Positions 10,735-43,379 of a stretch of 44,556 bases of DNA are shown here, piece after piece (the first letter of the stretch is position 1; the number at the start of each line of letters is the position of its first letter). The position numbers were made by a program, and so were the translations under genes. The stretch is taken from assembly GCA_947624705.1 (NCBI GenBank), contig CANQLL010000003.1:1-44556 (forward strand), given 5' to 3'. Source of the DNA: an uncultured Bacilli bacterium (lineage in GTDB: Bacteria; Bacillota_I; Bacilli_A; RF39; UBA660). The notes below the pieces were generated by a model that saw only the letters and a program-made list of their open reading frames with translations, was not told where the DNA came from and ran no database searches.

Positions 10735-13128
10735 CTATTTGATATTGATTGGATTATCTACTTCACCCGTACCGGAATATGTTAGATTATCAGTTTTTAG
10801 ATTGATAACTGGCACCACGGCTCCGATATCATTATTGGCACTGACGTAGCTTAAGGAACCTGGAGTGCTAGCATCTAACACATAAACATGGCTATTAGAA
10901 TTGTTAGGCGAGGCCGTCCAATAACCATAACTTCTTCTTAAATAATTTTGCTCGGATGCATAAGTATTATATGATAATCCTCCCATTGCTAGTTCATCAG
11001 CTGTTATTAAGCCTATTTTACTTTTATATAGTCCCCCATATGTTCTTGATTGTTTATTTTTATTTACTTGTTCCGGACATACCAGGGTTGGGGTTACATT
11101 TGTTGAATTTGAAACTAATCTCTGGTACGCTCCATAATATAAAGTTGACGTTGAACTTGTATTATCTACTCCACTTCCATAACTAATATCATTACAAAAT
11201 AAACCATATGCTATTTGTTCATCATATTCATTTAAATTTGTTTTATACCACTCTTCTAAGGCATTTTTGATTGTACTATTTGTTCCTCCATTTTCATTTG
11301 TAAAAGTTTTTGTTCCTTTATTATATGTTACTTGACACGGGGAATTTATTGGACATGAATTTCCTCCACTGGTATAGCCTACTTTTTCATGTTCAGGTGT
11401 TGATGACTGCCAAGTATAATAATTATATTTTGAATTATTTGTTAATTTATCTTTTAACATTAATCGGACTGTTCCGTCCCCATTGACTCTTAGAATGCGC
11501 CATTCTTGGTCACCAAATTTGACATAGTTATTATCTACTTGACCTCGGAAGATATAACTTGTTCCACTATCATCTTGAGTGGCGTACAATCCACTTCCCG
11601 CTTTTATTTGGGCATCTGTTAAACTTTCACCTTCTGGTGGAAATCCTTTTGTGAAGTCAGGGTTGGTTACTTTTGGATAATTGGCTATTATCCATTCATT
11701 TAATTTCATTCTTTTAAAATTGACTGTACACTCTGTATCTTTACTTGGACTAGTTATGGTTAATGTATTATTTGCTTCATTATAACTTCCATTTTGTCCA
11801 TTTGTACATGTTACTCCTTTACTTGAATCATATACATAGCCAGAATTTGGATATACTTTCATTGTTGCCGTTGTTTTATAATCTGTTGTTTTAGTAATGT
11901 TTTCTCCTTCACTTATTACATATGGACTGCCGCTACTTCCACTTCCTGTTGCCATTACATCGGCTTTTAAATTGATAACTGGCCGCACTCCGCTAGAAGT
12001 ATTATTGACAGTAACGTCGTAAAGGTAGCCACTGTTGCCGCGAAGAACATAAGCATTGCCACTACTGAAGTAGTAAGGCGACAGGCCCCACCATGGAACA
12101 CCCTTATATAAATAATTACTACTTAAAGCATATGGACTACTATAAGCAAATCCTGCATAATTCATCTCATCAGCACTTAATAAACCTATCTTTAATTTAT
12201 ATAATCCTCCATAGGTATGATATCTTGTTCCATTTACTGTTGTGGTGTCTGTATTTGAGTAACCTGTCCCTGCTGTCGGATTTGGACATATTAAAGTGGG
12301 TTGCCCATATTTTGATGAACTTTTATTTGCAACTCTTTCGTACGCTCCATAATATGTAGTACTTGCTTCACTTCCACTTGCAAAACTAGTGTCATTACAA
12401 TATGTTCCATAGGCTATTTTACTATCATAATTTCTTAAATTATTATAATACCATGTCTCTAATTGTGTTTTTACATTACTATTTGTTCCTCCATAAGTAT
12501 TACTAAAGGTTGCACTATTATTATATGTACTTTGACATGGACTACTTGTTGTACACGGAGTGCTATTATTATATGTATAACCTGTGTACATTCGAGCATT
12601 AGATGAATTATTAAATGTATAGCCACCTATATTTTCATCTAATATGATTCTTATTGTTCCATCTCCATTTATTCGCACTATTCTCCATGTCTTTTCGGCA
12701 AATTTTACATAATTATTAACATTTCCTCTAAAGTAATAACTTGTTCCAGTTTCATCAGAAGTACTAAATAAGCCACTTCCTCCAACACTATTTCCACTTG
12801 CGGGTGGTTCTCCTATGGTGAAATCTGGGGTTACGGTTTTAAGAGTATTATTTTTTAATATTTTATCTACTAAACTTCCCTCTACATATCCATTATTTGC
12901 TTTAACATTTATTTTTATTTTTTTACTAGCAGTTGTTTTAAATGCTGAATATCTTCCTGAGGAAAAGGAATACATAGCCATACTTCTATAAATAAATATA
13001 CTTAATATTGCTACTCCTATAATACTAAACATTGTTACATATTTAAATTTTTTGCTATGTATTCCTTTTCCCTGAACTTTTTTTAATTCTTTTTTATAGT
13101 TAAATGGTTTTAACTTTATTTTCTTCAT
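10735..13128 (-). CDS. Membrane-anchored surface protein with two tandem DUF6273/C-type-lectin-like modules
   Basis: N-terminal basic segment plus TM; duplicated 'GSGL(F/Y)(S/A)T.D..GTSY.FRG.V.N.YVKF....WRI(V/L)R(I/V)NGDGT(I/V)R' and '(W)W..SP...YVL..GxL..V...PVINLK'. Confidence 0.75.
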   Translation of the reverse strand: MKKIKLKPFNYKKELKKVQGKGIHSKKFKYVTMFSIIGVAILSIFIYRSMAMYSFSSGRYSAFKTTASKKIKINVKANNGYVEGSLVDKILKNNTLKTVTPDFTIGEPPASGNSVGGSGLFSTSDETGTSYYFRGNVNNYVKFAEKTWRIVRINGDGTIRIILDENIGGYTFNNSSNARMYTGYTYNNSTPCTTSSPCQSTYNNSATFSNTYGGTNSNVKTQLETWYYNNLRNYDSKIAYGTYCNDTSFASGSEASTTYYGAYERVANKSSSKYGQPTLICPNPTAGTGYSNTDTTTVNGTRYHTYGGLYKLKIGLLSADEMNYAGFAYSSPYALSSNYLYKGVPWWGLSPYYFSSGNAYVLRGNSGYLYDVTVNNTSSGVRPVINLKADVMATGSGSSGSPYVISEGENITKTTDYKTTATMKVYPNSGYVYDSSKGVTCTNGQNGSYNEANNTLTITSPSKDTECTVNFKRMKLNEWIIANYPKVTNPDFTKGFPPEGESLTDAQIKAGSGLYATQDDSGTSYIFRGQVDNNYVKFGDQEWRILRVNGDGTVRLMLKDKLTNNSKYNYYTWQSSTPEHEKVGYTSGGNSCPINSPCQVTYNKGTKTFTNENGGTNSTIKNALEEWYKTNLNEYDEQIAYGLFCNDISYGSGVDNTSSTSTLYYGAYQRLVSNSTNVTPTLVCPEQVNKNKQSRTYGGLYKSKIGLITADELAMGGLSYNTYASEQNYLRRSYGYWTASPNNSNSHVYVLDASTPGSLSYVSANNDIGAVVPVINLKTDNLTYSGTGEVDNPINIK
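10801..10960 (-). other. Candidate DGR-type variable region, C-terminal copy
   Basis: NYLRRSYGYWTASPNNSNSHVYVLDASTPGSLSYVSANNDIGAVVPVINLK; GGT TCC TTA AGC TAC GTC AGT GCC codons, GC-rich relative to the rest of the gene. Confidence 0.4.
11965..12120 (-). other. Candidate DGR-type variable region, internal copy
   Basis: NYLYKGVPWWGLSPYYFSSGNAYVLRGNSGYLYDVTVNNTSSGVRPVINLK; codons TAC TAC TTC, CGC GGC AAC, GGC TAC CTT TAC GAC. Confidence 0.45.
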
Positions 13129-14768: not shown

Positions 14769-15182
14769 ATGAAATCAAAAATATTTAAAACAATTAAAAA
14801 TCCAAAACTTTATGCTTTTGGTTTAGCTAGTATTTTATCACTTAGTTCTTTAAGTGGATGCTTAAACCAAGATACTAATACTGAAATAATTAATAATGAA
14901 AATCAAATTACAAATGATGAACAAATAGAACCTATAACTAAAACTTTTAATCCGGGTGAGCATATTATTTCGGAACCTTACTTGTATAACGCAATTAGTA
15001 ATAAATATCAGCAATATCCTTATCATCCCGGTTATATTATAGTTGACATTGAACAAATTCGTAATGTTGTAACATTTTTTTATCAAAATGAAAAAACTGT
15101 AGAATGCACATCTAATGAAAATGGCGAATTTATCGAGTTTGGTACTCCAGTTGAACAAGAAAAAACTTTAACTTTAAAATAA
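14769..15182 (+). CDS. Lipoprotein, tandem family member 1 (single module)
   Basis: Lipobox SSLSGC; FNPGEHIISEP...YHPGYIIVDI...FGTPVEQEKTLTLK shared with the next two genes. Confidence 0.75.
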   Translation: MKSKIFKTIKNPKLYAFGLASILSLSSLSGCLNQDTNTEIINNENQITNDEQIEPITKTFNPGEHIISEPYLYNAISNKYQQYPYHPGYIIVDIEQIRNVVTFFYQNEKTVECTSNENGEFIEFGTPVEQEKTLTLK

Positions 15183-15212: not shown

Positions 15213-15272
15213 AAAAGATTGACTTTCTTTATGCAAATAAATATAATAATAATCACTAGAAATGAGGTATTT

Positions 15273-15941
15273 ATGATAAATTATAATTTTTTTAAGAATA
15301 ATAAATCTAAATTAGTAGCTTGTAGCTTAGCAGGGATAATGTCATTAGGAATTTCAAGTTGTAATGATAAAACTAAAGAAACAGATGCAAAGACGCCTAC
15401 GGAAAGAGTCGAGATTACAAAATTTTTTGATGTAGGAAAGCACATTATTTCTGAACCTATTGAATATAGCACTGCCAACATTAGGCAATATCATAATCAT
15501 CCAGGATATAAATGTGTTGATATAACGTTGGGTGATGGAAAATTTTACCATAGTGCTTTACTCTTTATTAATGATTATCCCGTTGATGTCAAACCAACCC
15601 TTAAAAATCAGACGTTAAATTATAATAATTTTGGTACTCCTCGAAATTATTCCGTAGTTGAAAAAAGTATAACAAATAATTGCAAAGAATTTTTACCAGG
15701 TGAACATATTTTGTTAGTCCATTTAGAGGACAAAAATATTCAAAACAACCAAATTTTTGAAACTTATGATGGTTATGAAATTATGGGTATAAGCTATGCA
15801 TCTAATTGGAATCCGATAGTTTTATATGTAAACAAAGAAAATGTTATTTGCGAAATAACTGGTTATGATAAAAACAATAATCCTGAATTTTTAAAGTTTG
15901 GTACTCCAGTTGAACAAGAAAAAACTTTAACTTTAAAATAA
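15273..15941 (+). CDS. Lipoprotein, tandem family member 2 (two modules)
   Basis: ATG at 15273 (MINYNFFKNNKSKLVACSLAG) preceded by GAGG; lipobox GISSC; near copy of member 3. Confidence 0.78.
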   Translation: MINYNFFKNNKSKLVACSLAGIMSLGISSCNDKTKETDAKTPTERVEITKFFDVGKHIISEPIEYSTANIRQYHNHPGYKCVDITLGDGKFYHSALLFINDYPVDVKPTLKNQTLNYNNFGTPRNYSVVEKSITNNCKEFLPGEHILLVHLEDKNIQNNQIFETYDGYEIMGISYASNWNPIVLYVNKENVICEITGYDKNNNPEFLKFGTPVEQEKTLTLK

Positions 15942-16028
15942 CTACCTTTTTAGGAAGTTATTTTATTTTTAAAAAGATTGACTTTCTTTATCCAAATAAA
16001 TATAATAATCACTAGAAATGAGGTATTT

Positions 16029-16700
16029 ATGATAAATTATAATTTTTTTAAGAATAATAAGTCTAAATTAGTAGCTTGTAGTTTAGCAGGAATTATGTCT
16101 TTAGGAATTTCAGGTTGTAATGATAAAACTAAAGAAACAGATACAAAGACGCCTATAGAAACAGTTGAAAATACAAAGCTTTTTGATGTTGGAAAGCATG
16201 TTGTTTCTGAACCTATTGATTATGATACTGCCAATATTAGGCAATGCCATAATCATCCGGGATATAAATGTATTGATATAACTTCGTCAGTTGGATTTTC
16301 TTTTAACTATAGTACTTTAATCTTTATTAATGATTACCCTGTTGATGTCAAACCAACACTTAAAGATAAGACCTTAAATTATAATAATTTTGGTACACCT
16401 CAAAATTATTCCGTAGTTGAAAAAAGTATAACAAATAATTGCAAAGAATTTTTACCAGGTGAACATATTTTGTTAGTCCGTTTAAAGGATAAAAATATTA
16501 AAAACAACCAAATTTTTGAGGCTTATGATGGTTATGAAATTATGGGTGTAAGCTATGCAAATAATTCTGATCCGATAGTTTTATATGTAAACAAAGAAAA
16601 TGTTATTTGTGAAATAACTGGTTATGATGAAAATAATAATCCTGAATTTTTAAAGTTTGGTACACCAGTTGAACAAGAAAAATCTTTAACTTTAAAATAA
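16029..16700 (+). CDS. Lipoprotein, tandem family member 3 (two modules)
   Basis: ATG at 16029; lipobox GISGC; highly similar to member 2 along its length. Confidence 0.78.
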   Translation: MINYNFFKNNKSKLVACSLAGIMSLGISGCNDKTKETDTKTPIETVENTKLFDVGKHVVSEPIDYDTANIRQCHNHPGYKCIDITSSVGFSFNYSTLIFINDYPVDVKPTLKDKTLNYNNFGTPQNYSVVEKSITNNCKEFLPGEHILLVRLKDKNIKNNQIFEAYDGYEIMGVSYANNSDPIVLYVNKENVICEITGYDENNNPEFLKFGTPVEQEKSLTLK

Positions 16701-20164: not shown

Positions 20165-21352
20165 TTACAATATATCTTCATAATTTTTTTGATAATCACT
20201 TGTTATTTTAATTACTTCGTGATTCTTAAGAGCTTTTTTAATTAAAGTTTCATAATCAATTAATTTTTCATATTCTATACATTTAGTTAATTCAGGATTA
20301 ATAACCGGATGTTTAGGCACAAAGATAGTACAACAATCTTCAAAAGGTAAAATACTTGTTTCATAAGTAGCAATTTCTCTGGCTATTTTAATTATTTCGA
20401 CTTTATCAAAACAAGCAACAGGACGAATGACCGGTAATTTAACTACTTCATTAATTACACTCATACTTGTTAAAGTTTGCGAAGCAACTTGGCCAATTGA
20501 TTCCCCATTAACTAAGACTTTAGCTTTAATATCATGAGCAATGGCCTCACTTATTCGATACATCATCCTGCGCATTATAGTGATTAAATATTCATGAGGA
20601 ATATTTTTATAAATTTCTTCTTGAATTTCGGTAAAATTAATCACATGCAATTTTAAATTATTATTATATAAACTTAATTTTTTGGCTAGTTCAATAACTT
20701 TATTTTTAGCTTCTTGACTTGTATGGGGAGGACTTTCAAAATAAACAGCTTCTAACTTTACTCCTCTTTTAATACTTAAATAACCAGCGACTGGTGAGTC
20801 TATTCCACCACTTAACATTAATAAACCTTTTCCTAAAACTCCTACGGGATAACCACCCTTTCCTTTAAAAGTTTCAAAATAAAGATATGTTGCTTCTTTT
20901 CTTAATTCAATATTAATTATTTTTTCGGGATGATGAATATCAACTTTAATCTTAGGAATATTTTTAAGTAATATTCCCCCAATTTTAGCACTAACTTCCA
21001 TACTAGTTAAAGGATAACTTTTATTACTTCTTTTGGTTATAACTTTAAATGTTTGAAATTCATAATCTTTAATTAAATCTAATAAATTAGTAGCCATACT
21101 ATTAATTGTATTATCAGCAAACTCATAAGCAATAACTATTTCATGAATACCAAATACATTTTGTAATTTATGAACAATTAAATCAAAATTATCATGAGGA
21201 ATAACAAACATTCTTCCTTTATCAAATTTAATTTCATAATCTAAATTATCTAAAGTAATAACAATATTTTCTTTTAAAGTATTTAAAAATAAACCAATAT
21301 TTCCTTTTTTTGTTGATAATTCACCATATTTAAGCATAATTAATTTTTGCAT
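20165..21352 (-). CDS. thiI: tRNA 4-thiouridine synthetase ThiI (ORF track extends to 21412; likely start MQKLIMLKYGELSTKKGN at 21352)
   Basis: LKYGELSTKKGNIGLF, GKGLLMLSGGIDSPVAGYLSIKRG PP-loop, PFEDCCTIFVPKHP. Confidence 0.93.
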   Translation of the reverse strand: MQKLIMLKYGELSTKKGNIGLFLNTLKENIVITLDNLDYEIKFDKGRMFVIPHDNFDLIVHKLQNVFGIHEIVIAYEFADNTINSMATNLLDLIKDYEFQTFKVITKRSNKSYPLTSMEVSAKIGGILLKNIPKIKVDIHHPEKIINIELRKEATYLYFETFKGKGGYPVGVLGKGLLMLSGGIDSPVAGYLSIKRGVKLEAVYFESPPHTSQEAKNKVIELAKKLSLYNNNLKLHVINFTEIQEEIYKNIPHEYLITIMRRMMYRISEAIAHDIKAKVLVNGESIGQVASQTLTSMSVINEVVKLPVIRPVACFDKVEIIKIAREIATYETSILPFEDCCTIFVPKHPVINPELTKCIEYEKLIDYETLIKKALKNHEVIKITSDYQKNYEDIL

Positions 21353-21399
21353 GGGGGTTTCTTCCTCTCTAAATCGCAATATAATTTTATAATAAATCT

Positions 21400-21452
21400 T
21401 TTCTAACGTCAAACTTGTGAATCTTTTCTAACGTCATTTCTAACGTCAAACT
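21400..21452. repeat. Three copies of TTTCTAACGTCA between thiI and 180-aa gene
   Basis: Copies at 21400, 21425 and 21437; first and third extend to TTTCTAACGTCAAACT. Confidence 0.85.
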
Positions 21453-21453
21453 A

Positions 21454-21481
21454 TTGACTTTCAGATAAATTAAGTTATAAT
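21454..21481 (+). promoter_or_regulatory. Sigma-A-like promoter for the 180-aa gene
   Basis: TTGACT - 16 nt - TATAAT, directly downstream of the 12-bp repeats. Confidence 0.65.
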
Positions 21482-21501
21482 AAAAACCATTAAAGATTGA
21501 A

Positions 21502-22044
21502 TTGATAAATGTTTTTGAAGACAACTCCAATGTAGGTATATTTTATTTAAGTGACGAAGAAAGAGGAAAAATAATATCCGAAATAAAAAGTTATATTCAT
21601 AAAGGGTTTGATCCTAAAATATTAATTGCTCAATGTGAACATAAAATAATTGCTTTAAATGATAGTAAATTGTCTTACTTTTTTGCCAAAAATGTAAAAG
21701 GAGCACATGTAGATCTTCATTTAAATATTGCTATTGCTGATAAAGATTATGATATTTTATTTAAATTTGCCCAAAATATTCCTGGAGTTAATGTTGATGC
21801 TATAGGTGAAATTTTAGTAAATTCTTTCAATACTAAACTCTTAGAACTTTTTGTTGAAAAGTGTCATCCAACTAAATCATATGAGTATTATAAAGATAAA
21901 ATACATAAATTATATTATAAGGAATATGATAAACTACAAGATTTGCAATTAAATGAACTATCTGCGGCTCAACGACAAGAAATTAAATTATATAAGATTA
22001 ATGATAGTATTAAAAGAACAAACTTTTTAAAATATATTAAATAA
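21502..22044 (+). CDS. Hypothetical helical-repeat protein (FAxNVxGAxVD repeats)
   Basis: Two repeats LSYFFAKNVKGAHVDLHLNIAI / LFKFAQNIPGVNVDAIGEIL; TTG start assumed. Confidence 0.55.
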   Translation: MINVFEDNSNVGIFYLSDEERGKIISEIKSYIHKGFDPKILIAQCEHKIIALNDSKLSYFFAKNVKGAHVDLHLNIAIADKDYDILFKFAQNIPGVNVDAIGEILVNSFNTKLLELFVEKCHPTKSYEYYKDKIHKLYYKEYDKLQDLQLNELSAAQRQEIKLYKINDSIKRTNFLKYIK

Positions 22045-23782: not shown

Positions 23783-23847
23783 TTAATGACACTCTTTTAT
23801 TAATTTCACATAAATTATTAGTGAGAATACATGAAAGGGTGAATAAT

Positions 23848-24312
23848 ATGTGTAATAATAATTCAACATCTAATCAAGGTAATTGCATTGCCGATATCTT
23901 AAATGTAATATTAATTCTTCAACAAAATGCAAGTCCTGAAAATTGTTTAGATTCTTGTGATCGACCAATGCTTGGAGGCGGGCCTAATTGTTTAATATGT
24001 AACACTCGTCCTGTAATGCTTTATACATGCTGCGGCAATGGGGTGCCTTGGACAATGCCAGTTTGTAAAGATACTTCAATAACTTGTTCAAATCCACAAG
24101 CTAGTGATAATGGTAATAATTGTTGCTCTTGTGTGTTTAGGGTTGAAAAGATAGATGGAAATTGTGCAACATTTAGAGTTTTAGCTGATAATCCCGAACC
24201 AAGTTGCTGTAACTCTATGCCATATATAGCAACAAATTCATTCTTCACAATGAACCTAAGCTGTGTATGTTGCATTAAATGTTTAAGTGATACAACTGTT
24301 GATTGTGTTTAA
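23848..24312 (+). CDS. Cys-rich spore coat CotY/CotZ-like protein
   Basis: CIADILNVILILQQNA...C..CDRPMLG...CNTRPVMLYTCCGNGVPW...F.MNLSCVCCIKCL; ATG at 23848 after AAAGGGTG. Confidence 0.7.
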   Translation: MCNNNSTSNQGNCIADILNVILILQQNASPENCLDSCDRPMLGGGPNCLICNTRPVMLYTCCGNGVPWTMPVCKDTSITCSNPQASDNGNNCCSCVFRVEKIDGNCATFRVLADNPEPSCCNSMPYIATNSFFTMNLSCVCCIKCLSDTTVDCV

Positions 24313-24320
24313 GAAGATAT

Positions 24321-24352
24321 AAAAAAATATGATCACCAAATCATATTTTTTT
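24321..24352. terminator. Bidirectional terminator between cotZ-like and nth
   Basis: AAAAAAATATGA-tcaccaaa-TCATATTTTTTT. Confidence 0.75.
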
Positions 24353-24970
24353 CTTTTTAAAATATTTACATTCTTTTTGAAGTAGACAATCTTGACATAA
24401 AGGATTTTTACTTTTACAAGTATAACGACCAAATAAAACCATTTGATGATGAGTTCTACTCCATTTATCTCTAGGCACCTTGCGCATGAGTTTTTGTTCA
24501 ACAACAAGGACATTATCATTTTCTTTAGCTAAACCTAATCTTTTAGCTACTCTTTCCACATGGGTATCAACAGCAATAGCGGGGACATCATAGATATTAG
24601 CCAGAACTACATTACAAGTCTTACGCCCTACCCCAGGTAAATTTTCTAAATATTTTCGATTGTTAGGAACTTTTCCCTTAAAATCTTTAACTAAAGCTTG
24701 CGCAATATTAATAATATATTCACTTTTTTTCGTATAAGTTCCTACTGGTCTAATTATTTCTTCTACATCTTTTTTAGAAGCTTTACTTAAAGAGAAAATA
24801 TCATATTTGCTAAATAATTCTTTAGTTACCATATTAACTCTAGCGTCAGTACATTGAGCTGATAAGACTGTTGCTATTAAAAGTTCATAATCTTTGCTAT
24901 AATTTAATTCACAACGGGGATTAGGAACCATAATATCCAATTTTTCTAAAATATTATATTTCATCATCAT
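24341..24970 (-). CDS. nth: Endonuclease III
   Basis: LIATVLSAQCTDARVN, LPGVGRKTCNVVLANIYDVPAIAVDTHVERVAKRLG, C-x6-C-x2-C-x5-C cluster. Confidence 0.95.
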   Translation of the reverse strand: MMMKYNILEKLDIMVPNPRCELNYSKDYELLIATVLSAQCTDARVNMVTKELFSKYDIFSLSKASKKDVEEIIRPVGTYTKKSEYIINIAQALVKDFKGKVPNNRKYLENLPGVGRKTCNVVLANIYDVPAIAVDTHVERVAKRLGLAKENDNVLVVEQKLMRKVPRDKWSRTHHQMVLFGRYTCKSKNPLCQDCLLQKECKYFKKKKI

Positions 24971-25607
24971 CTAACCAATCATAATCAAATAATTCTTTTT
25001 CTTCTTTTGGTTTATCATTTTTATTCATTAAATGTTTATTAACATCATCCATTGTTTTAAATCCCTTTTTCCCCCACTCATAAATTATTTTATCAATATA
25101 GCGAAAATTTCTAACGCCATTATAGATTGCTTCTTTTAAAGCGCCTAAAATTAACTCTTCACTAATATTATTTTCTAACCAGGCATTAACTATTTCATAT
25201 TCTATAGGAGAAAGTTGCCGATCAAATTCTTTTTCAAAAATATCAAAGATATTTTCTTTCCTACTTTTTTTATTTTCTTCTTTAACCTCACTGGTTAAAG
25301 AAGCATATAATAAATCTAAAGATATAGTTTCACTAATTTTCCCATTATCTAAAGTTTTAACTTCCATTTTAATTAATTGTTTATTCATTAAATTATTAAA
25401 AGCGTCTAAAATTTCTTTTTCATTTAAACCTAATTTTTGTTCAATATCTTTTAAATTAAATATTTTTTCATCTTCATTATAAAAATATATTATTAGTAAA
25501 AATTCATTTAAATTTAAATTATGTTTTAATAACTCTTTAATTATTATAGCTGAAATTACATAGTGTTTAGTATTAAACATATTTTTATAATCTAACATTT
25601 TAACCAC
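24954..25607 (-). CDS. dnaD: DnaD-like replication initiation protein
   Basis: IFDIFEKEFDRQLSPIEYEIVNAWLENNISEELILGALKEAIYNGVRNFRYIDKIIYEWGKKG. Confidence 0.9.
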   Translation of the reverse strand: MVKMLDYKNMFNTKHYVISAIIIKELLKHNLNLNEFLLIIYFYNEDEKIFNLKDIEQKLGLNEKEILDAFNNLMNKQLIKMEVKTLDNGKISETISLDLLYASLTSEVKEENKKSRKENIFDIFEKEFDRQLSPIEYEIVNAWLENNISEELILGALKEAIYNGVRNFRYIDKIIYEWGKKGFKTMDDVNKHLMNKNDKPKEEKELFDYDWLDDDEI

Positions 25608-26692
25608 ATTCCTTTATTATCAGTTATATATTTAATTAAAATTTCTTTTTCATTAGTAATTTTTTTATTTAAAATTAAAATAATTAAGCTATCCGTTATA
25701 TTTTTAATTATTTTAGATGGTTTAATCTTTAAAGCTTTTTGAATATCATCACCATCTATAGCCAGTTCACTCGCTCTTTTTATGGGCATTTCATTATATA
25801 TTTCATTTATTTTTTTAGAATCTAAGCCTAATATTTTTCCAGAAATTATACAAATATATAAACCATATTTAAATAAAATTCCATAATCTATTTTTCCATA
25901 ATTTACTACTTCTTTAATAGCTTCACAATTTTGTTTTTCTTCTTTAGTTAAAGGAAAATCATCAGGTAAATTAAGTTGAGCAAACATAGCATTAATATCA
26001 TCAACGTATTTTAATTTAGAATAAGATATTTTTAAAATATCTAAAATTTGTAATTCTTTTAAATAATTAAATCCTTCTACAGCATTAGGAGAAATTAACA
26101 TTTTGGTTATTTCTTCTTTTTTACGAGTACCAGAAATATTTTGAATATCTTCTTTATGAACATGAATATATTTAATTATTTCACTATCTATTATTAAATT
26201 ATGCGTTATTTTTAATCTTAAAGCTCTTAACATTCTTAAAGGATCTTCTTGAAATTTCGCATTAATATCACCAATAACTCTGATTGTTTTATTTTGCAAA
26301 TCTTCTAAACCATTAACTTTATCTATAATATGGCCATTTATATCCATATATAAAGCATTAATTGTAAAATCTCTTCTTTTTATATCAGGATATAAATCAT
26401 TAATATATTCTATTTTCGTTGGTTTGCCATGTTCGTATTTTAATTCTTTTCGATAAGTATTAATATCAATCGAATATTTATTAATATTTAATTTTAAAGA
26501 ACCATAACAAGATGTTTTAAAATCATCATCAGCAAATATTTGCATTAAATCTTTAGGTAAAGCATTAGTACAAATATCAACATCATTAGTCTCGCGATTT
26601 AAAATAAAATCGCGCACATAGCCACCTACAATATAGGCTTGATAACCAGCATCTATTATTTTTTGTAAAATTTTTTTTATGTCTTCTGTCAT
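25592..26692 (-). CDS. cca: CCA tRNA nucleotidyltransferase / poly(A) polymerase family
   Basis: AYIVGGYVRDFILNRETNDVDICTNALP, RRDFTINALYMD, DPLRMLRALR. Confidence 0.93.
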   Translation of the reverse strand: MTEDIKKILQKIIDAGYQAYIVGGYVRDFILNRETNDVDICTNALPKDLMQIFADDDFKTSCYGSLKLNINKYSIDINTYRKELKYEHGKPTKIEYINDLYPDIKRRDFTINALYMDINGHIIDKVNGLEDLQNKTIRVIGDINAKFQEDPLRMLRALRLKITHNLIIDSEIIKYIHVHKEDIQNISGTRKKEEITKMLISPNAVEGFNYLKELQILDILKISYSKLKYVDDINAMFAQLNLPDDFPLTKEEKQNCEAIKEVVNYGKIDYGILFKYGLYICIISGKILGLDSKKINEIYNEMPIKRASELAIDGDDIQKALKIKPSKIIKNITDSLIILILNKKITNEKEILIKYITDNKGMWLKC

Positions 26693-26725
26693 TATTGTCG
26701 AGTATATCTCCCTTTCTTTTTTAGC

Positions 26726-27658
26726 TTATAATGTTTTCGTTAAAACATGACCTTGCATTTCTTTTAATTCAAAATTTTCAGTCTTTTCAAAACTTAATAT
26801 TAAATCTTTAAGAGTTTCAGTTGTATAAACTATTTCATTTAAAGAATTAGTTGGTAATGGACACTCTTTGTCAGCATTTTCTAAAATTTGCTTTTCATTT
26901 AAATAGTATAAAACTTCCCCATTTATATTCATAATCATAACATTTTTAGCATCAGCTTCATGATAAATAAGCGGTTTAGCTTTTTTTTCAATTTCGATAA
27001 TATCTTTATAATTTTGTTTAGCTATTAATTCTAATAAGTATTGATATTGTTCTAAAGATAAAGAATAAACTTTATAAGTTTTATCCAAATTATATTGCAT
27101 ATTATATTCTAAGTATTGATATAAATTATCTCTGGAAATTTGCGTTCTTTCTGGATTTACTCTGATAACTTTATCTAATTTTTTAAGATAAGATTGATCT
27201 AAAGTAATAGTATTATCTAAAATTTGGTTGGTTAAAATTCTATATTTTCTTAAATTATTTTGAAATTCTTCTCTTTCTTTATGGGCTTTAGAACGAGGTA
27301 TATAAGAGCATTCATTATTAATTAAATTACTATTTTTTTCATTAGTAAATTTTAAAGCTTCTTCATAATTATCAAAAACTTGTTCCACAAGATTATAATT
27401 ATTACATTGAAAATTAAAATTGTATTGAGGAATAACTTTCTCTAAATCAAAGATTTTCGTTTTATCATCAAAATATATAGGTTGATAAGGAAAAACAACG
27501 GCATATTCTTTTTCATAGTCACCATCTATTTTATATATAGTTTTTTCCCCTACTAAATAACATTTTGAAACAATATAACATACAGTAGCTTTCTCTAATC
27601 TATTAATGGGTTCAATGATGGGCATAGCGGCATATTTAATGGGATAATTATATTTCAT
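26726..27658 (-). CDS. Hypothetical protein
   Basis: Long ORF in cca-dnaD-nth transcription unit; no family recognised. Confidence 0.6.
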   Translation of the reverse strand: MKYNYPIKYAAMPIIEPINRLEKATVCYIVSKCYLVGEKTIYKIDGDYEKEYAVVFPYQPIYFDDKTKIFDLEKVIPQYNFNFQCNNYNLVEQVFDNYEEALKFTNEKNSNLINNECSYIPRSKAHKEREEFQNNLRKYRILTNQILDNTITLDQSYLKKLDKVIRVNPERTQISRDNLYQYLEYNMQYNLDKTYKVYSLSLEQYQYLLELIAKQNYKDIIEIEKKAKPLIYHEADAKNVMIMNINGEVLYYLNEKQILENADKECPLPTNSLNEIVYTTETLKDLILSFEKTENFELKEMQGHVLTKTL

Positions 27659-27839
27659 AACTTAAACACCTCAAATTAATTATATAATGACTTTAGGAAA
27701 AAAGCTATTTATTTTTCTATTGGAATAAAATAAAAAGAACTATACTGTTAATATTATTTCAGTGACAATTTTTATTATTAATTTTATCTTTTTTAAGAAT
27801 TTCCTTTTTAATTCAACGCATATTAATAATGGTGATTTT

Positions 27840-28337
27840 ATGTATTTAATCAATATTTTTTTAAGTTATTCCATTATTGGTTATTTATTTGAATTAATAG
27901 TTGATTTAATTTTAAAAATTAAACCTAGTAGTGGCATTTTATTTGGACCATGGACACCTATTTATGGTTTTGGTGTTTTAATAATGTTATTTATTAAAAA
28001 TAAATTACAAAAATTAAATTTAAATAAAGTTTTAGAAATAATTATTTTCTTTTTTATCATCGTTATTACTTTAACTTTATTAGAACAATTAGGAGGAGTT
28101 CTTTTAGCAAAATTATTTCATAAAACTTTATGGGATTATCGTAATTTAAAATTTCATATAACTAAATATATTGCTTTAGAAACTTCTTTAGGTTGGGGAC
28201 TTGGTTCCATAATTATTGCTTATGTTATTCATCCAAAATTTAAAAAAATTTTAAAGAAAATTCCCTTTTTAATCTCCTCTTTAGTTTTTATTGCTTTTGC
28301 AATTGATGTAATAATAACAATATTTAAATATATATAG
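27840..28337 (+). CDS. CmpB-like putative membrane protein (PF06541 family)
   Basis: YSIIGYLFELIVDLI....GILFGPWTPIYGFGVL...LEQLGGVLLAKLFHKTLWDYRNLKF; ATG at 27840 after GGTGAT. Confidence 0.8.
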   Translation: MYLINIFLSYSIIGYLFELIVDLILKIKPSSGILFGPWTPIYGFGVLIMLFIKNKLQKLNLNKVLEIIIFFFIIVITLTLLEQLGGVLLAKLFHKTLWDYRNLKFHITKYIALETSLGWGLGSIIIAYVIHPKFKKILKKIPFLISSLVFIAFAIDVIITIFKYI

Positions 28338-28397
28338 GCTGATAAACAATTCAAGGTATAAATGTCTCATATTATATCTTGAAAGGGGAAATAAAAA

Positions 28398-28835
28398 ATG
28401 TTATTTGAAAACAATAATTTTGATGATAACTTTGGGTTAGACTTATCTTTTTTTAATCTAGATTTAGATAGTAAAAAAAATCCTAAATTATATGATGTAA
28501 AAGAAGGATTTTTAAAAGGAAATATGTTTAAAAATGAATTTGAGCCTTATAAGAATTATCCAGTAGCAACAATTGTTCCAAAAAATAAAAAAGAAGAATT
28601 AGAATTAAAAATATATGAATTAGATTTTGCTATTAATGATTTAAATTTATACTTAGATTTACATCCAGAAGATATGGAAATGTTTAATTTATTTAAAAAA
28701 TATATTAAAGATGCTAATCGTTATAAAGAAGAATATTTAAATGAAATAGGACCAATTTGTCTTACAGATGTTACTTCTAAAACTTATGATTGGCCCAATA
28801 CTTGGCCTTGGGAAAATAAAGGAGGTAATATCTAA
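28398..28835 (+). CDS. CotJA-CotJB fusion spore coat protein
   Basis: N-part EGFLKGNMFKNEFEPYKNY (CotJA-like); C-part ELDFAINDLNLYLDLHPEDMEMFNLF....TYDWPNTWPWE (CotJB); overlaps cotJC start (TAATG). Confidence 0.75.
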   Translation: MLFENNNFDDNFGLDLSFFNLDLDSKKNPKLYDVKEGFLKGNMFKNEFEPYKNYPVATIVPKNKKEELELKIYELDFAINDLNLYLDLHPEDMEMFNLFKKYIKDANRYKEEYLNEIGPICLTDVTSKTYDWPNTWPWENKGGNI

Positions 28836-29392
28836 TGTTTAAATATGAAAAAAAATTAAATTATCCGGTTAATTTAAAGAAAAAAGATTTAAAAATGGCT
28901 AAATATTTAATTACTCAATTTGGCGGTTCTAATGGGGAATTAGCGGCGGCGTTACGTTATTTTTCGCAAAAATTTACGATGCCTGATGCCAAAGGTAAAG
29001 CTTTACTTAATGATATAGCTACCGAAGAATTTGGTCATTGTGAAATGATTTGTACCATGATTTATCAATTAACTAAAGGTGCAACGGTGGAAGAATTAAT
29101 GAATGCCGGAATTGGCACAAAATATGTAGAACATGGTAAAGCTTTATACCCTACTGATTCGGAAGGAGTTCCATTTACAGCGAGCTACTTTAATGCTGTA
29201 GGTGACCCTCTTGCTGATTTAGCTGAAGATATGGCCGCTGAACAAAAAGCCCGGGCAACTTATGAACATTTAATTGATATTGCCACTGACCAAGATATTA
29301 TTGCCGTTTTACTTTTCTTACGCCAAAGAGAAGTTGTTCACTATAATCGTTTTAAAGAATTATTTGATATGTATCAAAAGCAAGGTTACTAG
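28835..29392 (+). CDS. cotJC: CotJC manganese-catalase-like spore coat protein
   Basis: GGSNGELAAALRYFSQKFTMPDAKGKALLNDIATEEFGHCEMICTMI. Confidence 0.93.
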   Translation: MFKYEKKLNYPVNLKKKDLKMAKYLITQFGGSNGELAAALRYFSQKFTMPDAKGKALLNDIATEEFGHCEMICTMIYQLTKGATVEELMNAGIGTKYVEHGKALYPTDSEGVPFTASYFNAVGDPLADLAEDMAAEQKARATYEHLIDIATDQDIIAVLLFLRQREVVHYNRFKELFDMYQKQGY

Positions 29393-38074: not shown

Positions 38075-38340
38075 TTATTTAGTTCTTCTTGTAACTAATA
38101 ATTGATCTGGCATTAAATAAATTGTATCATTTTCACGCATGACTCTTTCTTTATCAATTCCAAATCGATTGGCCACAACATCTAAAGTATCTCCTTCAGT
38201 TGTTATATAATAACTATAGCCGCTTTTGGGAATTAAAATTTGTTGATTAGGATAGATATAATCATTCATTGTTAAACCATTTAAAGTTGCTAGTAATTCG
38301 GGATTAATATTATATTTTCTGGCAATAGCATATAAATTAT
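38075..38340 (-). pseudogene. 3' fragment of a LysM-repeat gene, separated from its 5' half by an inserted element
   Basis: Reads GDNLYAIARKYNINPELLATLNGLTMNDYIYPNQQILIPKSGYSYYITTEGDTLDVVANRFGIDKERV... in frame from the core at 38338-38344. Confidence 0.85.
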
Positions 38341-38344
38341 CCCC
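38338..38344. other. Predicted attachment-site core, left junction
   Basis: TATCCCC shared with 42035-42041; the LysM reading frame resumes exactly here. Confidence 0.75.
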
Positions 38345-38355
38345 TGATACTCTTT

Positions 38356-39909
38356 TTATGTCGTATTTTTAAATGTAAATATAATATCTATCCTTTTATC
38401 TTGATAGATATAAATTTTTTCTACTAAATTTATGATTAATTCTCTTGATAGATTTTCAATTGATAAAAATTTATCAATGTATTTTTCTATTTTTTTATTA
38501 TCTATTTTATTTGATTCTTGATTTTTTAATTTAGCAATATTTTTTTGATTATCTTCTATTTCTTTTTTGATATTTTTCCTTATTCTTAAATATTGTGATT
38601 CATCAATAAAACCTTTTAATCTATCCATATAAGTTTTATCTAAATTTTCAGTTAGTTTATTATTTGTAAGTTCTAAACTTTCAATTTGTTTTTTTATTTT
38701 TAAATTGTTGTCTGCAAATTTTATATTTCCTATAGAATCTTTTATTTTCTTTTTATCAAGGTACTTCTTACAAACATCTTTAATATTATCTAAAATAACA
38801 CGCTCTAATGTTTCATAATTATTTGTATGAGTAGTACAAACATGATACTTTGAGTAAGTTCTATAATAATTGCAAGTAGTATAACTTCTACCTGTTTTAT
38901 TTTGATATCTTATCGTTATTCGATGTTTACAATCTCCACAATATAAAAGGCCATCTAATAAATAAAATCTTTTTTTCTCTGGTCTTTTTACATTTTTAGG
39001 AAGAAGAGTTTGAACATAATTAAAAGTATCTCTATCTATTATAGCTTCATGAGTATTTTTTACAATGATATAGTCTTTAGGATTATTTTTAACTGTCTTT
39101 TTTAATTTATAATTAATCTTTTTAGTTTTTCCTTGTACTGAATCTCCCACGTAGATTTGATTAGTTAAAATTGCTTTTATTGTTGTATCAACCCATACAC
39201 CAAGTTCTTTTGAAATACATTTACTACTCTTTGTATTCCATACATAATTGTAGTAAGATGCTGGTGTTTTAATTTTTCTTTTGGTTAATTCTTGGGCTAT
39301 GTAATGATAAGTATTGCCTTTTAACGCTAAATCGAAGATTAATCTAACGGTCTTTGCTTGTTCTTCATTTATTATTAGATGATTTTTATTATTTGGATCT
39401 TTCATATAGCCAAAAGGACATCTACCTGATACATATAAACCATCTTTCATTCTTGAATGTAAACTAGACTTTACTTTTTTAGAAATATCTTTGGCATACA
39501 TATCATTCATTATGGCCTTAAAAGGTGCTATATCATTATTGGTATTATCTATGAATGTATCTATTCCATCATTGATAGCAATATATCTTATATTATTGTT
39601 GGGAAAATATTTTTCTATTAACTCGCCGGTGCCGATATAATCACGACCCAATCTTGACATATCTTTAGTAATAATCATATTTATTTTATTATTTTCTATA
39701 TCTTTAATCATTTTCTTAAAAGCTGGTCTTTCAAAATTAGTGCCAGTAAATCCATCATCCACATATTCATCAATAACATTATAATTATTTTCTTTAACAT
39801 ATTGATTAAGTAAACTTCTTTGACTAACAATACTATCAGATTCAATATTTCCATCATCTCTTGATAATCTTATATAAAGTCCGACTTTAAAACTATTATT
39901 GCCGATCAT
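38356..39909 (-). CDS. Large serine recombinase (resolvase/Recombinase/zinc-ribbon, TnpX/TndX-like)
   Basis: VGLYIRLSRDDG..SDSIVSQRSLLNQYV, VDDGFTGTNFERPAFKKMI, MITKDMSRLGRDYIGTGELIE, LLYCGDCKHRITIRY. Confidence 0.95.
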   Translation of the reverse strand: MIGNNSFKVGLYIRLSRDDGNIESDSIVSQRSLLNQYVKENNYNVIDEYVDDGFTGTNFERPAFKKMIKDIENNKINMIITKDMSRLGRDYIGTGELIEKYFPNNNIRYIAINDGIDTFIDNTNNDIAPFKAIMNDMYAKDISKKVKSSLHSRMKDGLYVSGRCPFGYMKDPNNKNHLIINEEQAKTVRLIFDLALKGNTYHYIAQELTKRKIKTPASYYNYVWNTKSSKCISKELGVWVDTTIKAILTNQIYVGDSVQGKTKKINYKLKKTVKNNPKDYIIVKNTHEAIIDRDTFNYVQTLLPKNVKRPEKKRFYLLDGLLYCGDCKHRITIRYQNKTGRSYTTCNYYRTYSKYHVCTTHTNNYETLERVILDNIKDVCKKYLDKKKIKDSIGNIKFADNNLKIKKQIESLELTNNKLTENLDKTYMDRLKGFIDESQYLRIRKNIKKEIEDNQKNIAKLKNQESNKIDNKKIEKYIDKFLSIENLSRELIINLVEKIYIYQDKRIDIIFTFKNTT

Positions 39910-40025
39910 TAACTTATACTCCTACTGAGTAAATTTTCTAATTCTATTTTTAAAACATTAGTTATTATTTCATTTAAAGTTTTTCCATTTTCTTTAAATT
40001 TTAAATTAATTTTATATTTAACCAT
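39909..40025 (-). CDS. Small TnpW-like accessory protein (38 aa) coupled to recombinase
   Basis: MVKYKINLKFKENGKTLNEIITNVLKIELENLLSRSIS*; stop overlaps recombinase start (TAATG); absent from ORF track. Confidence 0.6.
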   Translation of the reverse strand: MVKYKINLKFKENGKTLNEIITNVLKIELENLLSRSIS

Positions 40026-40057
40026 AGAATTTTATACCTCCAATAAAATTCTATGGT
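40021..40057 (-). promoter_or_regulatory. Perfect 15-bp inverted repeat with RBS in the loop and start codon in the stem
   Basis: Minus strand ACCATAGAATTTTAT-TGGAGGT-ATAAAATTCTATGGT. Confidence 0.8.
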
Positions 40058-40098
40058 TCTTAAATTAATAATATTGTAAATTACTGACAAAAATCAAT

Positions 40099-41955
40099 TT
40101 ATCTAATAATTTTGCCAATTTCTTCTATTCCACTTTGCATAGTATTCATTTTCTTTTGTTGCTCCTCAAGATTACTTATTATAACATTAATTTTTTTTAT
40201 ATCATTTGGATTAGTTGCTAATTTTTTTAACGTATATCCATCATTTATAAGCTTATTATTTATAACAATTAGCGTTGCAAGTTCTTTATCATCAATATAT
40301 CCGTCAGACATCATTATATGGTATGCTTCTTGAGCTTTATCTAATTTGTTTCTTAATTGTCCTATTAATCTAGAAAAATCTTTATCATTATTAATTTGAT
40401 TAATTTCTTTTTTTATTTCAGTTTGTTTTTGAGTTTTTATTTCAGAATGAAGTTTTTTATATTTTTCTTGGATCTCTGTTAAGATAATATTTTGTAATCT
40501 AATTTGCATTTCATTATGACTAAGTTCATAAATAGAACGAGTCATTATTTGCTCCAATTCATCTTCATTATTTAATGATTCGATTAGATAAGTTTCATTA
40601 TAAAATATTTCACCTATTAGCTGTTTCTTTTGTTCTTCAGACATTTGATTATTAGGATAGTATCTTTGTACTACTTTTATCATTTCATTAAAATAATAAT
40701 TAAAATCTTTCTTCTTTTTATCTTCTTGATTCATTTGAGAATATTTTTTAATATTGGCATTTTGATTGATATCAATTACTTGTTTTTCTCTTTCAATTAC
40801 CATGTTTTTTATATTAGAAATTATTTTATCTTGTTCAGTAATTAAATTAGGATTTTTAGTCATCTGATTATTAAATTCGGATATATAATTTTTAATCCTA
40901 GTAATATCAGTTTGTGTAAGATTAGGATTTTTTAAATCATGTGCAACTTTTTTTTGTAAACAGATAGTTAAAAATAAATCTAGCTTTTGAGATTCTTCTA
41001 ATGAAGATTCATTCTTTATTTTATTTAATGAATTAAGGATATTAAACATAGGCGGTTTACCTTGATATATTTTATCAGAAACCATTTTAAATTGATCAAA
41101 AAATTCATAGGCTACGATTGAATTTTCATACATTGCTTTAAAAGCTAAATTTTCGCCCATTACAATCTTCATCATTTTTCCATATGAAGTTATCTTATAA
41201 TTACTAGACTGATAATTATAAATATTCTTTTTAAAACCATTACCCATATTGTATAAGAATTGGGATTTATTAACACCAGTCACCCTAAGTGCCTCATCCT
41301 CATTAAAAATTTCATCAAGATATATCGCGTATGCATTTTTTGCATAGAAATCTCTTGCATCTTTACTTTTGTCATCTTTACGAATCACTTTCATACCTGC
41401 TTGTCTTATAGTTAACATTTCATTAGTAGATTGAAGTTTAAAATAATTGGGATACTTTGTATTTAGATTATTGATTAATTGTCTATATTTATTATCATCA
41501 TTTCCATACATCCCTTTAAATGATGTTTGCAAAGCATGACCTAATTCATGATTAAATACATTTAAAGATGCTTTTCTTAATGTCTCGTTATCCACATTAT
41601 GAATTCTATTTTGTAATTTATCCAAGGTTATATCTTCGATAAATTTATAATTCCCTATATATAGTGATTGGTCTTTTGAAGTATAAGCACCTTTAAGAGT
41701 ATTATCTTTATTATATGTTTGATCAAAATCATAATTTCTAATATTATTAACTAATCTATTAATGAAAAAATCTCCAATATCAGAACTATTTACAACTATT
41801 TTAGTCTCATTATTATTAAAATCAGGATTAACATTTTGATAGATTTTTACTCTTCTAATAATATTTTGCCTTATTAAATTAGCTTGCTCAGTACTTAAAT
41901 TATAAACTGACACTATTTCGTTAATTACAATATTAAGTTTTTTTTCAAAATTCAT
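40099..41955 (-). CDS. HELGH zincin-like metalloprotease-type cargo protein (track starts at 41967; likely ATG at 41955)
   Basis: SLNVFNHELGHALQTSFKGMYG HExxH motif; long helical C-terminus; ATG preceded by AGGTGGTGAG. Confidence 0.65.
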   Translation of the reverse strand: MNFEKKLNIVINEIVSVYNLSTEQANLIRQNIIRRVKIYQNVNPDFNNNETKIVVNSSDIGDFFINRLVNNIRNYDFDQTYNKDNTLKGAYTSKDQSLYIGNYKFIEDITLDKLQNRIHNVDNETLRKASLNVFNHELGHALQTSFKGMYGNDDNKYRQLINNLNTKYPNYFKLQSTNEMLTIRQAGMKVIRKDDKSKDARDFYAKNAYAIYLDEIFNEDEALRVTGVNKSQFLYNMGNGFKKNIYNYQSSNYKITSYGKMMKIVMGENLAFKAMYENSIVAYEFFDQFKMVSDKIYQGKPPMFNILNSLNKIKNESSLEESQKLDLFLTICLQKKVAHDLKNPNLTQTDITRIKNYISEFNNQMTKNPNLITEQDKIISNIKNMVIEREKQVIDINQNANIKKYSQMNQEDKKKKDFNYYFNEMIKVVQRYYPNNQMSEEQKKQLIGEIFYNETYLIESLNNEDELEQIMTRSIYELSHNEMQIRLQNIILTEIQEKYKKLHSEIKTQKQTEIKKEINQINNDKDFSRLIGQLRNKLDKAQEAYHIMMSDGYIDDKELATLIVINNKLINDGYTLKKLATNPNDIKKINVIISNLEEQQKKMNTMQSGIEEIGKIIR

Positions 41956-41960
41956 TTGAC

Positions 41961-42227
41961 TCACCACCTATAGTTATAATAACATTTTTCATAATTTTTA
42001 TTTTTTAAATATTCATTATTTCCCATAAAAACTGTATCCCCCTTTTCAATTGTATAATATTCAAAATATTGTTCTTTATTTTTGGGAACAACTATTTCCA
42101 TTCCCGCTCTTAAATAATTAACATTTTCTAAATTATTTAATTCTTTTAATACTTCAATTGAAGTATTAAATTTTTGGGCTATTACTTTTAAATCTTCGCC
42201 ACTTTTTAAAAGATATTTATCATACAT
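41961..42227 (-). pseudogene. 5' half of split LysM gene fused to element-encoded tail
   Basis: MYDKYLLKSGEDLKVIAQKFNTSIEVLKELNNLENVNYLRAGMEIVVPKNKEQYFEYYTIEKGD then element tail TVFMGNNEYLKNKNYEKCYYNYRW*. Confidence 0.85.
42035..42041. other. Predicted attachment-site core, right junction
   Basis: TATCCCC shared with 38338-38344; LysM reading frame is lost beyond this point. Confidence 0.75.
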
Positions 42228-42272
42228 ACTTAATCACTCCTAATAGTAAGATATGATAAACTCCTAATTTTG

Positions 42273-43379
42273 TTATTTAAAAACAAAAATCATTTTTTCA
42301 AAATTAAAATTCCATTCAAAATTTTCTAGTAATAATATTTCTCCTTCTTTAGGAGAATAACTATATAATTTATTTTCCTCTAAATAATAAACAGTATCAT
42401 CTTGTGTATCAATAATTTTTGCATTTTCTTTCTTACTTACTAACCTTTTATTTTCACTATTATATAATTTTAAATATAAATTTTTTTTACTTAAATAATA
42501 ATTATAATCTAATGTTTGAATAAATTTTCTTTCTTTATTTACTAATTCATTTAAAGTTATTTCTTTAAAACCATTTTCATAAATAATTCCTTTATTTTTC
42601 TTATTTCCTACTATTCTCAATTTTTTATGAGATGGTACTATTTCATACTCAATCTTATTTTTCTTATCAACTAAATAAACACTATCTTTATAAGTCCCTA
42701 AAACATAACTATCCATAGAAATATCGTAATCAATATTCCAAATTTCTTTTTTACCATTATCAAAATTAATAATAATAAATTGATTAAAATTATATTCTTC
42801 TTGATAATTAGCTAAAATTAATAAATTATGAATTTTAGCTATTACTTTAAGATTATATACATCTTTATCAGTTATTTTTATATTATCAGTTATATCTTTA
42901 TTTAAATAATAAAAACCTTTGTAATTCCATAATAAATATTTATTAGAGTTTAAATTATGAATTGTAATATTATTAAAATTAATTTTATTATCAATATTAT
43001 TTTCTTTTATTTTATAATGTTTAAGTATTTCTTCATCATTAATTAATCTAATATCTTTTAAAGTATTATTTTCATAACAAACCGGTTTAAGTACTTCTTT
43101 TTTTAAAGAAATACTTAAACATTTATTTTTTTCATTTGTAAAATAATCTAAATTTTCTACTAATTTACGTCCTTTGGTAGATGAAATAAATTCATAATCT
43201 TTGTTATCAATATTTATTTTAAAATAATGAATTTTTAAATCTTTATTATATTCTTCATAAATTTTGTAATTGTTAATTTTATATTCAATTTTATAATTGT
43301 GAGGAAGATGAAAGAGGATAATAATTACAATAATGGTAATTATTATCATATAAAATCTTTTTTTAACTTTCTTCTTCAT
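42273..43379 (-). CDS. Hypothetical membrane-anchored protein
   Basis: N-terminal TM KKRFYMIIITIIVIIILFHL; no family recognised. Confidence 0.6.
   Translation of the reverse strand: MKKKVKKRFYMIIITIIVIIILFHLPHNYKIEYKINNYKIYEEYNKDLKIHYFKINIDNKDYEFISSTKGRKLVENLDYFTNEKNKCLSISLKKEVLKPVCYENNTLKDIRLINDEEILKHYKIKENNIDNKINFNNITIHNLNSNKYLLWNYKGFYYLNKDITDNIKITDKDVYNLKVIAKIHNLLILANYQEEYNFNQFIIINFDNGKKEIWNIDYDISMDSYVLGTYKDSVYLVDKKNKIEYEIVPSHKKLRIVGNKKNKGIIYENGFKEITLNELVNKERKFIQTLDYNYYLSKKNLYLKLYNSENKRLVSKKENAKIIDTQDDTVYYLEENKLYSYSPKEGEILLLENFEWNFNFEKMIFVFK

Follow-up and report, generated by a model that had tools for sequence, protein, structure and literature searches.

A TnpX-like serine recombinase element in a triple-LysM gene, from a mobile family whose predicted attB is LysM-coding DNA

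The large serine recombinases TnpX of Tn4451 and TndX of Tn5397 use GA as crossover dinucleotide. Among multi-targeting large serine recombinases, close enzymes have been shown to use several gene families as integration targets (Durrant et al. 2022, PMC10083194), and this clade includes TndX-like enzymes and commonly, although not universally, has DUF4368 (PMC10083194). Furthermore, sporulation genes interrupted by such elements are represented by skin in sigK, SP-beta in spsM and gin in gerE (PMC4191935, PMC5595907, PMC5025042), in which either the recombinase or a directionality factor is controlled by the mother cell (PMC5595907, PMC5025042). The present study concerns a 3.7-kb segment in a 44,556-nt stretch of DNA from an uncultured Bacilli bacterium (the window). 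We are confident that this segment belongs to a TnpX-like recombinase family whose attB would be the DNA coding for the LysM core; the family occurs in many uncultured bacteria of the gut. The gene that it hit, which encodes a small protein with cell-wall-binding LysM repeats, is probably a late mother-cell gene, and excision would restore it.

The recombinase has the same domain order as TnpX and TndX (Resolvase, Recombinase, Zn-ribbon), and the elements are, like Tn4451 and Tn5397, short, equipped with accessory genes and found at several sites. In contrast to those elements, the crossover here appears to lie at GG instead of GA, the target is a motif encoding a protein domain, and no resistance or transfer genes were found. 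As with the multi-targeting enzymes, related recombinases sit in several LysM gene types; however, the sites described here have in common a complex, in-phase coding motif of one domain family. LysM is absent from the main text of the systematic survey of large serine recombinases (PMC10083194). The locus also resembles skin, SP-beta/spsM and gin/gerE in that a serine-recombinase element splits an apparent mother-cell gene and predicted excision repairs the frame. Unlike in those cases, no clear mother-cell promoter precedes the recombinase operon, insertion affects a whole domain family instead of a single gene, and excision, known there, is predicted here from sequence.

A multi-targeting TnpX-like element is thus a known kind. 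As far as could be checked, the domain-encoding attB and the frequent use of apparent mother-cell genes are new; a literature search on serine integrases and LysM, with subscription papers and preprints outside its scope, returned one irrelevant match.

The split gene and its element

The triple-LysM gene runs on the minus strand from 42227 to 38075 and is interrupted by a 3,697-bp element. A first-pass annotation had proposed a LysM gene split by a 3.7-kb serine-recombinase element, and deletion of the 3,697 bp in silico indeed leaves an open frame of 151 codons, whose product has three Pfam LysM domains. No stops or frameshifts were found in the gene halves of the window. The annotation had also noted GGGGATA at both junctions in one codon phase, and this was confirmed: the 5′ and 3′ fragments have it in common (minus-strand copies 42041-42035 and 38344-38338), and its plus-strand form TATCCCC occurs at 38338 and 42035 and elsewhere in the window only at 31487. 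In coding direction, the element carries the cargo gene (622 aa), a small ORF (38 aa) and the large serine recombinase (517 aa), the latter being, as annotated, the last gene inside the element, directly before its right end. The junctions predicted after precise excision are attB = AAAAGGGGGATAATTTATATGC and attP = GTATCAGGGGATACAGTTTTTATGG.

41961..42227, minus strand: 5′ part of the triple-LysM gene; host sequence as far as the core (42041-42040), followed by codons of the element and a stop
38075..38344, minus strand: 3′ part of the triple-LysM gene; remainder of LysM 2, and LysM 3, without its own start codon at the junction
38345..42041, minus strand: inserted element, 3,697 bp; ends ambiguous inside the common GGGGATA
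42000..42041, minus strand: attL; host LysM codons ...GG followed by the element left end NGATANNNTTTTTATGGRRAATAATGA
38338..38365, minus strand: attR; element right end ACATAAAAANNGTATCWGG followed by host LysM codons
38356..39909, minus strand: large serine recombinase, 517 aa; Resolvase, Recombinase and Zn-ribbon domains; best solved relative TnpX
39909..40025, minus strand: small conserved ORF, 38 aa; overlaps the recombinase start; candidate directionality factor
40020..40055, minus strand: inverted repeat CCATAGA...TCTATGG around the Shine-Dalgarno sequence and start codon of the small ORF
40099..41967, minus strand: cargo gene for a 622-aa protein with a HELGH motif; no match to a family

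The attribution of the insertion to a large serine recombinase is borne out by the domains of the enzyme and by its best match among solved structures, the TnpX catalytic domain (E=2e-27). DUF4368 gave a weak match (18.5 bits against a cut-off of 25). The small ORF has 38 aa in the window versus the usual 55-63 aa (about 59) in other copies. The inverted repeat at its start is kept in 60 of 61 copies with covariation almost absent; its arms are nearly invariant, hence covariation offered no test of a start-codon hairpin, and that candidate was set aside. Such a repeat over the start (39909-40055) could shield the small ORF from read-through transcripts.

The 622-aa cargo protein has a relative (63%) inside another LysM-inserted element (L156). 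No match to its family was obtained in Pfam, NCBIfam, PHROG or PADLOC, the best PDB hit had E=0.8, and the structure model was poor (mean pLDDT 57.6). In other family proteins (L350-L357), its N-terminal region, which carries HExxH in L354 and L355, is found apart from its C-terminal region, as if the protein were modular. Elsewhere in the window, two tandem, very similar 240-aa ORFs lie at 15219-16700, with a shorter relative directly before them (14769-15182).

The check for an empty, intact gene in relatives, suggested with the annotation, was run, and the ~150-aa gene proved unbroken in all eight congeners searched (63-80% identity). Since it is intact there, the insertion would most simply have arisen in the window's lineage; among the genus members searched, only the window genome has this gene split. 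GGGGATA had been expected at the empty sites. Congener DNA reads GGC GAT, GGG GAC, GGA GAT, GGT GAT or GGG GAT, so that GGN GA(T/C) was found in 8/8, but the exact 7-mer in only 1/8. Therefore, the conserved feature is the Gly-Asp codon pair and not the 7-mer. Across the family, the triple-LysM gene was detected in 255 of 386 genomes (E<=1e-15), full length in most cases listed. Some ten other species likewise have an insertion in this gene or a close relative of it, usually within LysM 2 and once within LysM 3 (L181).

The element family and its target sites

Recombinases 82-94% identical were found in the window's genus and in other genera. Five complete elements and one spanning two contigs have the same two ends, namely a left end GGNGATANNNTTTTTATGG..AATAATGA (one mismatch in L064 and L066) and a right end ACATAAAAANNGTATC[AT]GGNGATA. 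Joining the flanks of these six elements gave an open LysM gene in every case; the rebuilt genes encode two peptidoglycan-binding domains with LysM, Amidase_3 with LysM, or LysM only. Scanning species genomes for the recombinase yielded 80 loci, 77 of them with a candidate right end, and 73 of these 77 run on in frame as GDx[LI] LysM codons (GG^N GAT) in one phase. Of the remaining four, one has a stop two codons past the junction, whereas the other three fit the pattern poorly. Both halves could be joined in silico in 44 loci (element length 2.3-7.9 kb, median 4.1 kb), and the halves are open, with no stops or frameshifts. The DNA end pattern alone, whose right-end part contains GATA, so that these bases are conserved partly by construction, was found in 60 of 386 family genomes and 45 of 150 genera; a reversed control pattern had no match in the genomes listed. 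Ends found by pattern alone join LysM codons in 39 of 40 cases inspected; this collection overlaps the recombinase-based one, and the two counts are not additive. The targets comprise triple-LysM, amidase-LysM, PGBD-LysM, N-terminal-LysM, and M23- and lysozyme-like LysM genes.

The cargo of these elements is varied (judged by eye from the translations, it includes SWIM-like, RhuM-like, S41-like, MMPL/TetR-like and Fic-like proteins), and insertion sites differ within genera g153, g109, g104, g72 and g61. Furthermore, the elements are mostly 80-92% alike, versus mostly 63-79% for the flanking hosts. Variable cargo, differing sites and the greater similarity of the elements together indicate that they are mobile. 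These sequence comparisons show that the window element is one copy of a mobile family that is inserted at the LysM coding motif.

The attP is most palindromic about the point between the two G of GG, with 15-17 of 24 pairs in 5/5 complete elements. The third base of the Gly codon resembles host GGN usage at attR, and at attL it is mostly G, as if element-derived. Because the palindrome centre and the third-base composition both point there, we place the probable crossover dinucleotide at GG. When compared within the same genes, LysM repeats that are occupied and those that are not have nearly identical DNA, except for a C at position 6 (a Thr instead of a Ser codon), present in 75% of the occupied versus 40% of the unoccupied repeats. 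Thus, attB appears to be essentially the LysM core coding sequence. A scan of 372 genomes with the attP pattern gave no acceptable junction; the exact matches read closely, a part of the total, were look-alikes in which host LysM codons V-S-G-D imitate the element right arm.

In the mechanism that we propose, a presumably active TnpX-like enzyme would recombine the palindromic attP (CATAAAAANNGTATCWGG^NGATACNNTTTTTATG, crossover GG) with an attB consisting of the DNA for the LysM repeat core Y-x-V-x-x-G-D-[TSN]-L. Every LysM gene would be a possible target, always in equal codon phase. The gene hit here encodes a leaderless triple-LysM protein whose synthesis is probably confined to the mother cell at a late stage of sporulation; its interruption should therefore cost vegetative cells little and would be tolerated. 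Excision by attL x attR recombination would rebuild the 151-aa protein.

Some further arrangements were observed. In L068 (G008:C3), tandem elements occupy a LysM gene; the right end of one abuts a degenerate left end, which belongs to an element with a decayed recombinase. Another LysM gene of the window genome (L248, G000:C82) breaks off at ATACTTTATATAAA, at a contig end and at the expected crossover site, where there may be a second insertion or a branch in the assembly. The amidase motif S-P/R-G-G-D-G-A-E-V is a second site at which leaderless Amidase_3-LysM genes are interrupted (L081-L087, L102, L261, L263), and the recombinases nearby are of other lineages (37-43% identity); in L083, L086 and L087 the two halves of the gene were both found, and in L066 the amidase-motif site and the LysM site both seem occupied.

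Sporulation link and fate of the interrupted gene

The sigma-K promoter pattern is AC, about 16 nt, and CATANNNTA. One such site precedes the triple-LysM gene:

42247..42273, minus strand: sigma-K-type promoter of the triple-LysM gene, ACAAAATTAGGAGTTTATCATATCTTA (AC-N16-CATANNNTA)

A comparison of 16 sequences covered the window, twelve intact orthologues and three interrupted ones. In each of them CATANNNTA begins 25-29 nt before the ATG, and 15 of the 16 have AC 16-17 nt ahead of CATANNNTA. The Bacillus subtilis sigma-K consensus consists of two blocks with a 14-16 nt gap (PMC517825). Four strict sigma-K-type sites occur in the window, among them those before the CotZ gene (23791) and the triple-LysM gene; a third is a chance occurrence within another gene on the opposite strand. 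Shuffled sequence gave 0.08 sites with a ribosome-binding site and start. A sigma-K-type site also precedes 8 of 11 amidase-LysM genes, which are related to one another; among random 110-nt stretches the share is 0.65%. The triple-LysM protein has no apparent signal peptide; a preference of the elements for leaderless genes was considered and rejected, as most LysM genes read in relatives are leaderless and a bias could thus not be demonstrated.

The window holds spore-coat genes at 23821-29392, i.e., CotZ (23821), CotJB (28398) and a CotJC-like manganese catalase (28835). The sporulation link drawn in the annotation is strengthened by the conserved sigma-K-type promoter and by spoIVA and an intact sigK, above the curated cut-off, in the host genome. 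In related orders of uncultured Bacilli, sporulating members are predicted to occur side by side with non-sporulating ones (PMC10868615). Some targets have no sporulation-related look. From promoter motif and conservation, the LysM targets look like late mother-cell genes. A skin-like developmental excision is therefore plausible.

It is quite conceivable, though short of probable, that the LysM gene is dispensable and that the element will in practice not leave before the two halves have decayed. For elements of this kind, plain insertion is what one expects by default; moreover, the gene is split in none of the other genus members searched, and the small ORF is truncated. However, the window halves and the 44 reconstructed cases are free of stops and frameshifts, which may reflect young insertions, and the gene is widely kept in the family (255/386 genomes, mostly full length among those listed).

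With almost equal probability, the interruption could be programmed, such that the vegetative and the spore genome keep the element and its precise excision in the mother cell rebuilds the LysM gene for the spore envelope. This would add a regulated step to the mobile-element explanation without contradicting it. The promoters before the triple-LysM (15/16) and amidase-LysM genes (8/11), the leaderless products, sigK and spoIVA in the host, the open halves in the 44 cases and a congener's sigK itself split by a serine-recombinase element are consistent with such control. In that congener, of the window's genus (L358, G007:C2:11000-22500), the sigK parts lie about 9 kb apart (11994-12320 and 21317-21673), and a 595-codon serine recombinase frame stands directly before the second part, as in a skin-like element. 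In-frame restoration itself is no evidence of regulation, because any conservative integration yields it. Against control, a sigma-K site is absent from all 61 recombinase operons, and a strict sigma-E match is present in only 11 of the 61, which by this strict pattern do not include the window copy. A sigma-E promoter before the recombinase was rejected as unconvincing; the window has a near match, but the conserved blocks are spaced by 20 nt in 32 copies and by 14 nt in another 12. Furthermore, sites turn over fast within genera, and the small ORF, a possible directionality factor, is shortened in the window. The low dN/dS in the gene halves of L119 and L164 (0.09-0.10) was likewise rejected as proof that the split gene functions. 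The L119 recombinase is nearer to those of L108, L104 and L112 than to that of L164, and the cargo is common, to the same degree, to an element inserted in a different gene. The two insertions are at least as likely to be independent, which voids the test.

A clade-wide form of such rearrangement, in which the elements home to the LysM motif, thereby reaching spore-envelope genes of the mother cell, and leave the genome of that cell as it dies, is conceivable but less likely than not; if true, insertion would be nearly free for host and element. A prophage remnant or conjugative element sitting in the LysM gene by chance is highly improbable, for although large serine recombinases are common on phages and this one matches the PHROG 95 integrase, the element holds no further phage or conjugation gene, its end pattern has no exact match in viral contigs, and the LysM rule is kept across dozens of copies with diverse cargo.

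Implications for element and host

Our study thus describes a large serine recombinase family whose integration site appears to be set by the coding sequence of a protein-domain repeat. One enzyme would thereby find many equivalent in-phase sites per genome, and the enzymes bring with them a well-defined attP and attB. The evolution of skin-like elements out of ordinary mobile elements becomes directly testable here. In this gut lineage with core sporulation genes, where many LysM genes look like mother-cell genes, LysM targeting may put the elements where interruption is harmless or reversible.
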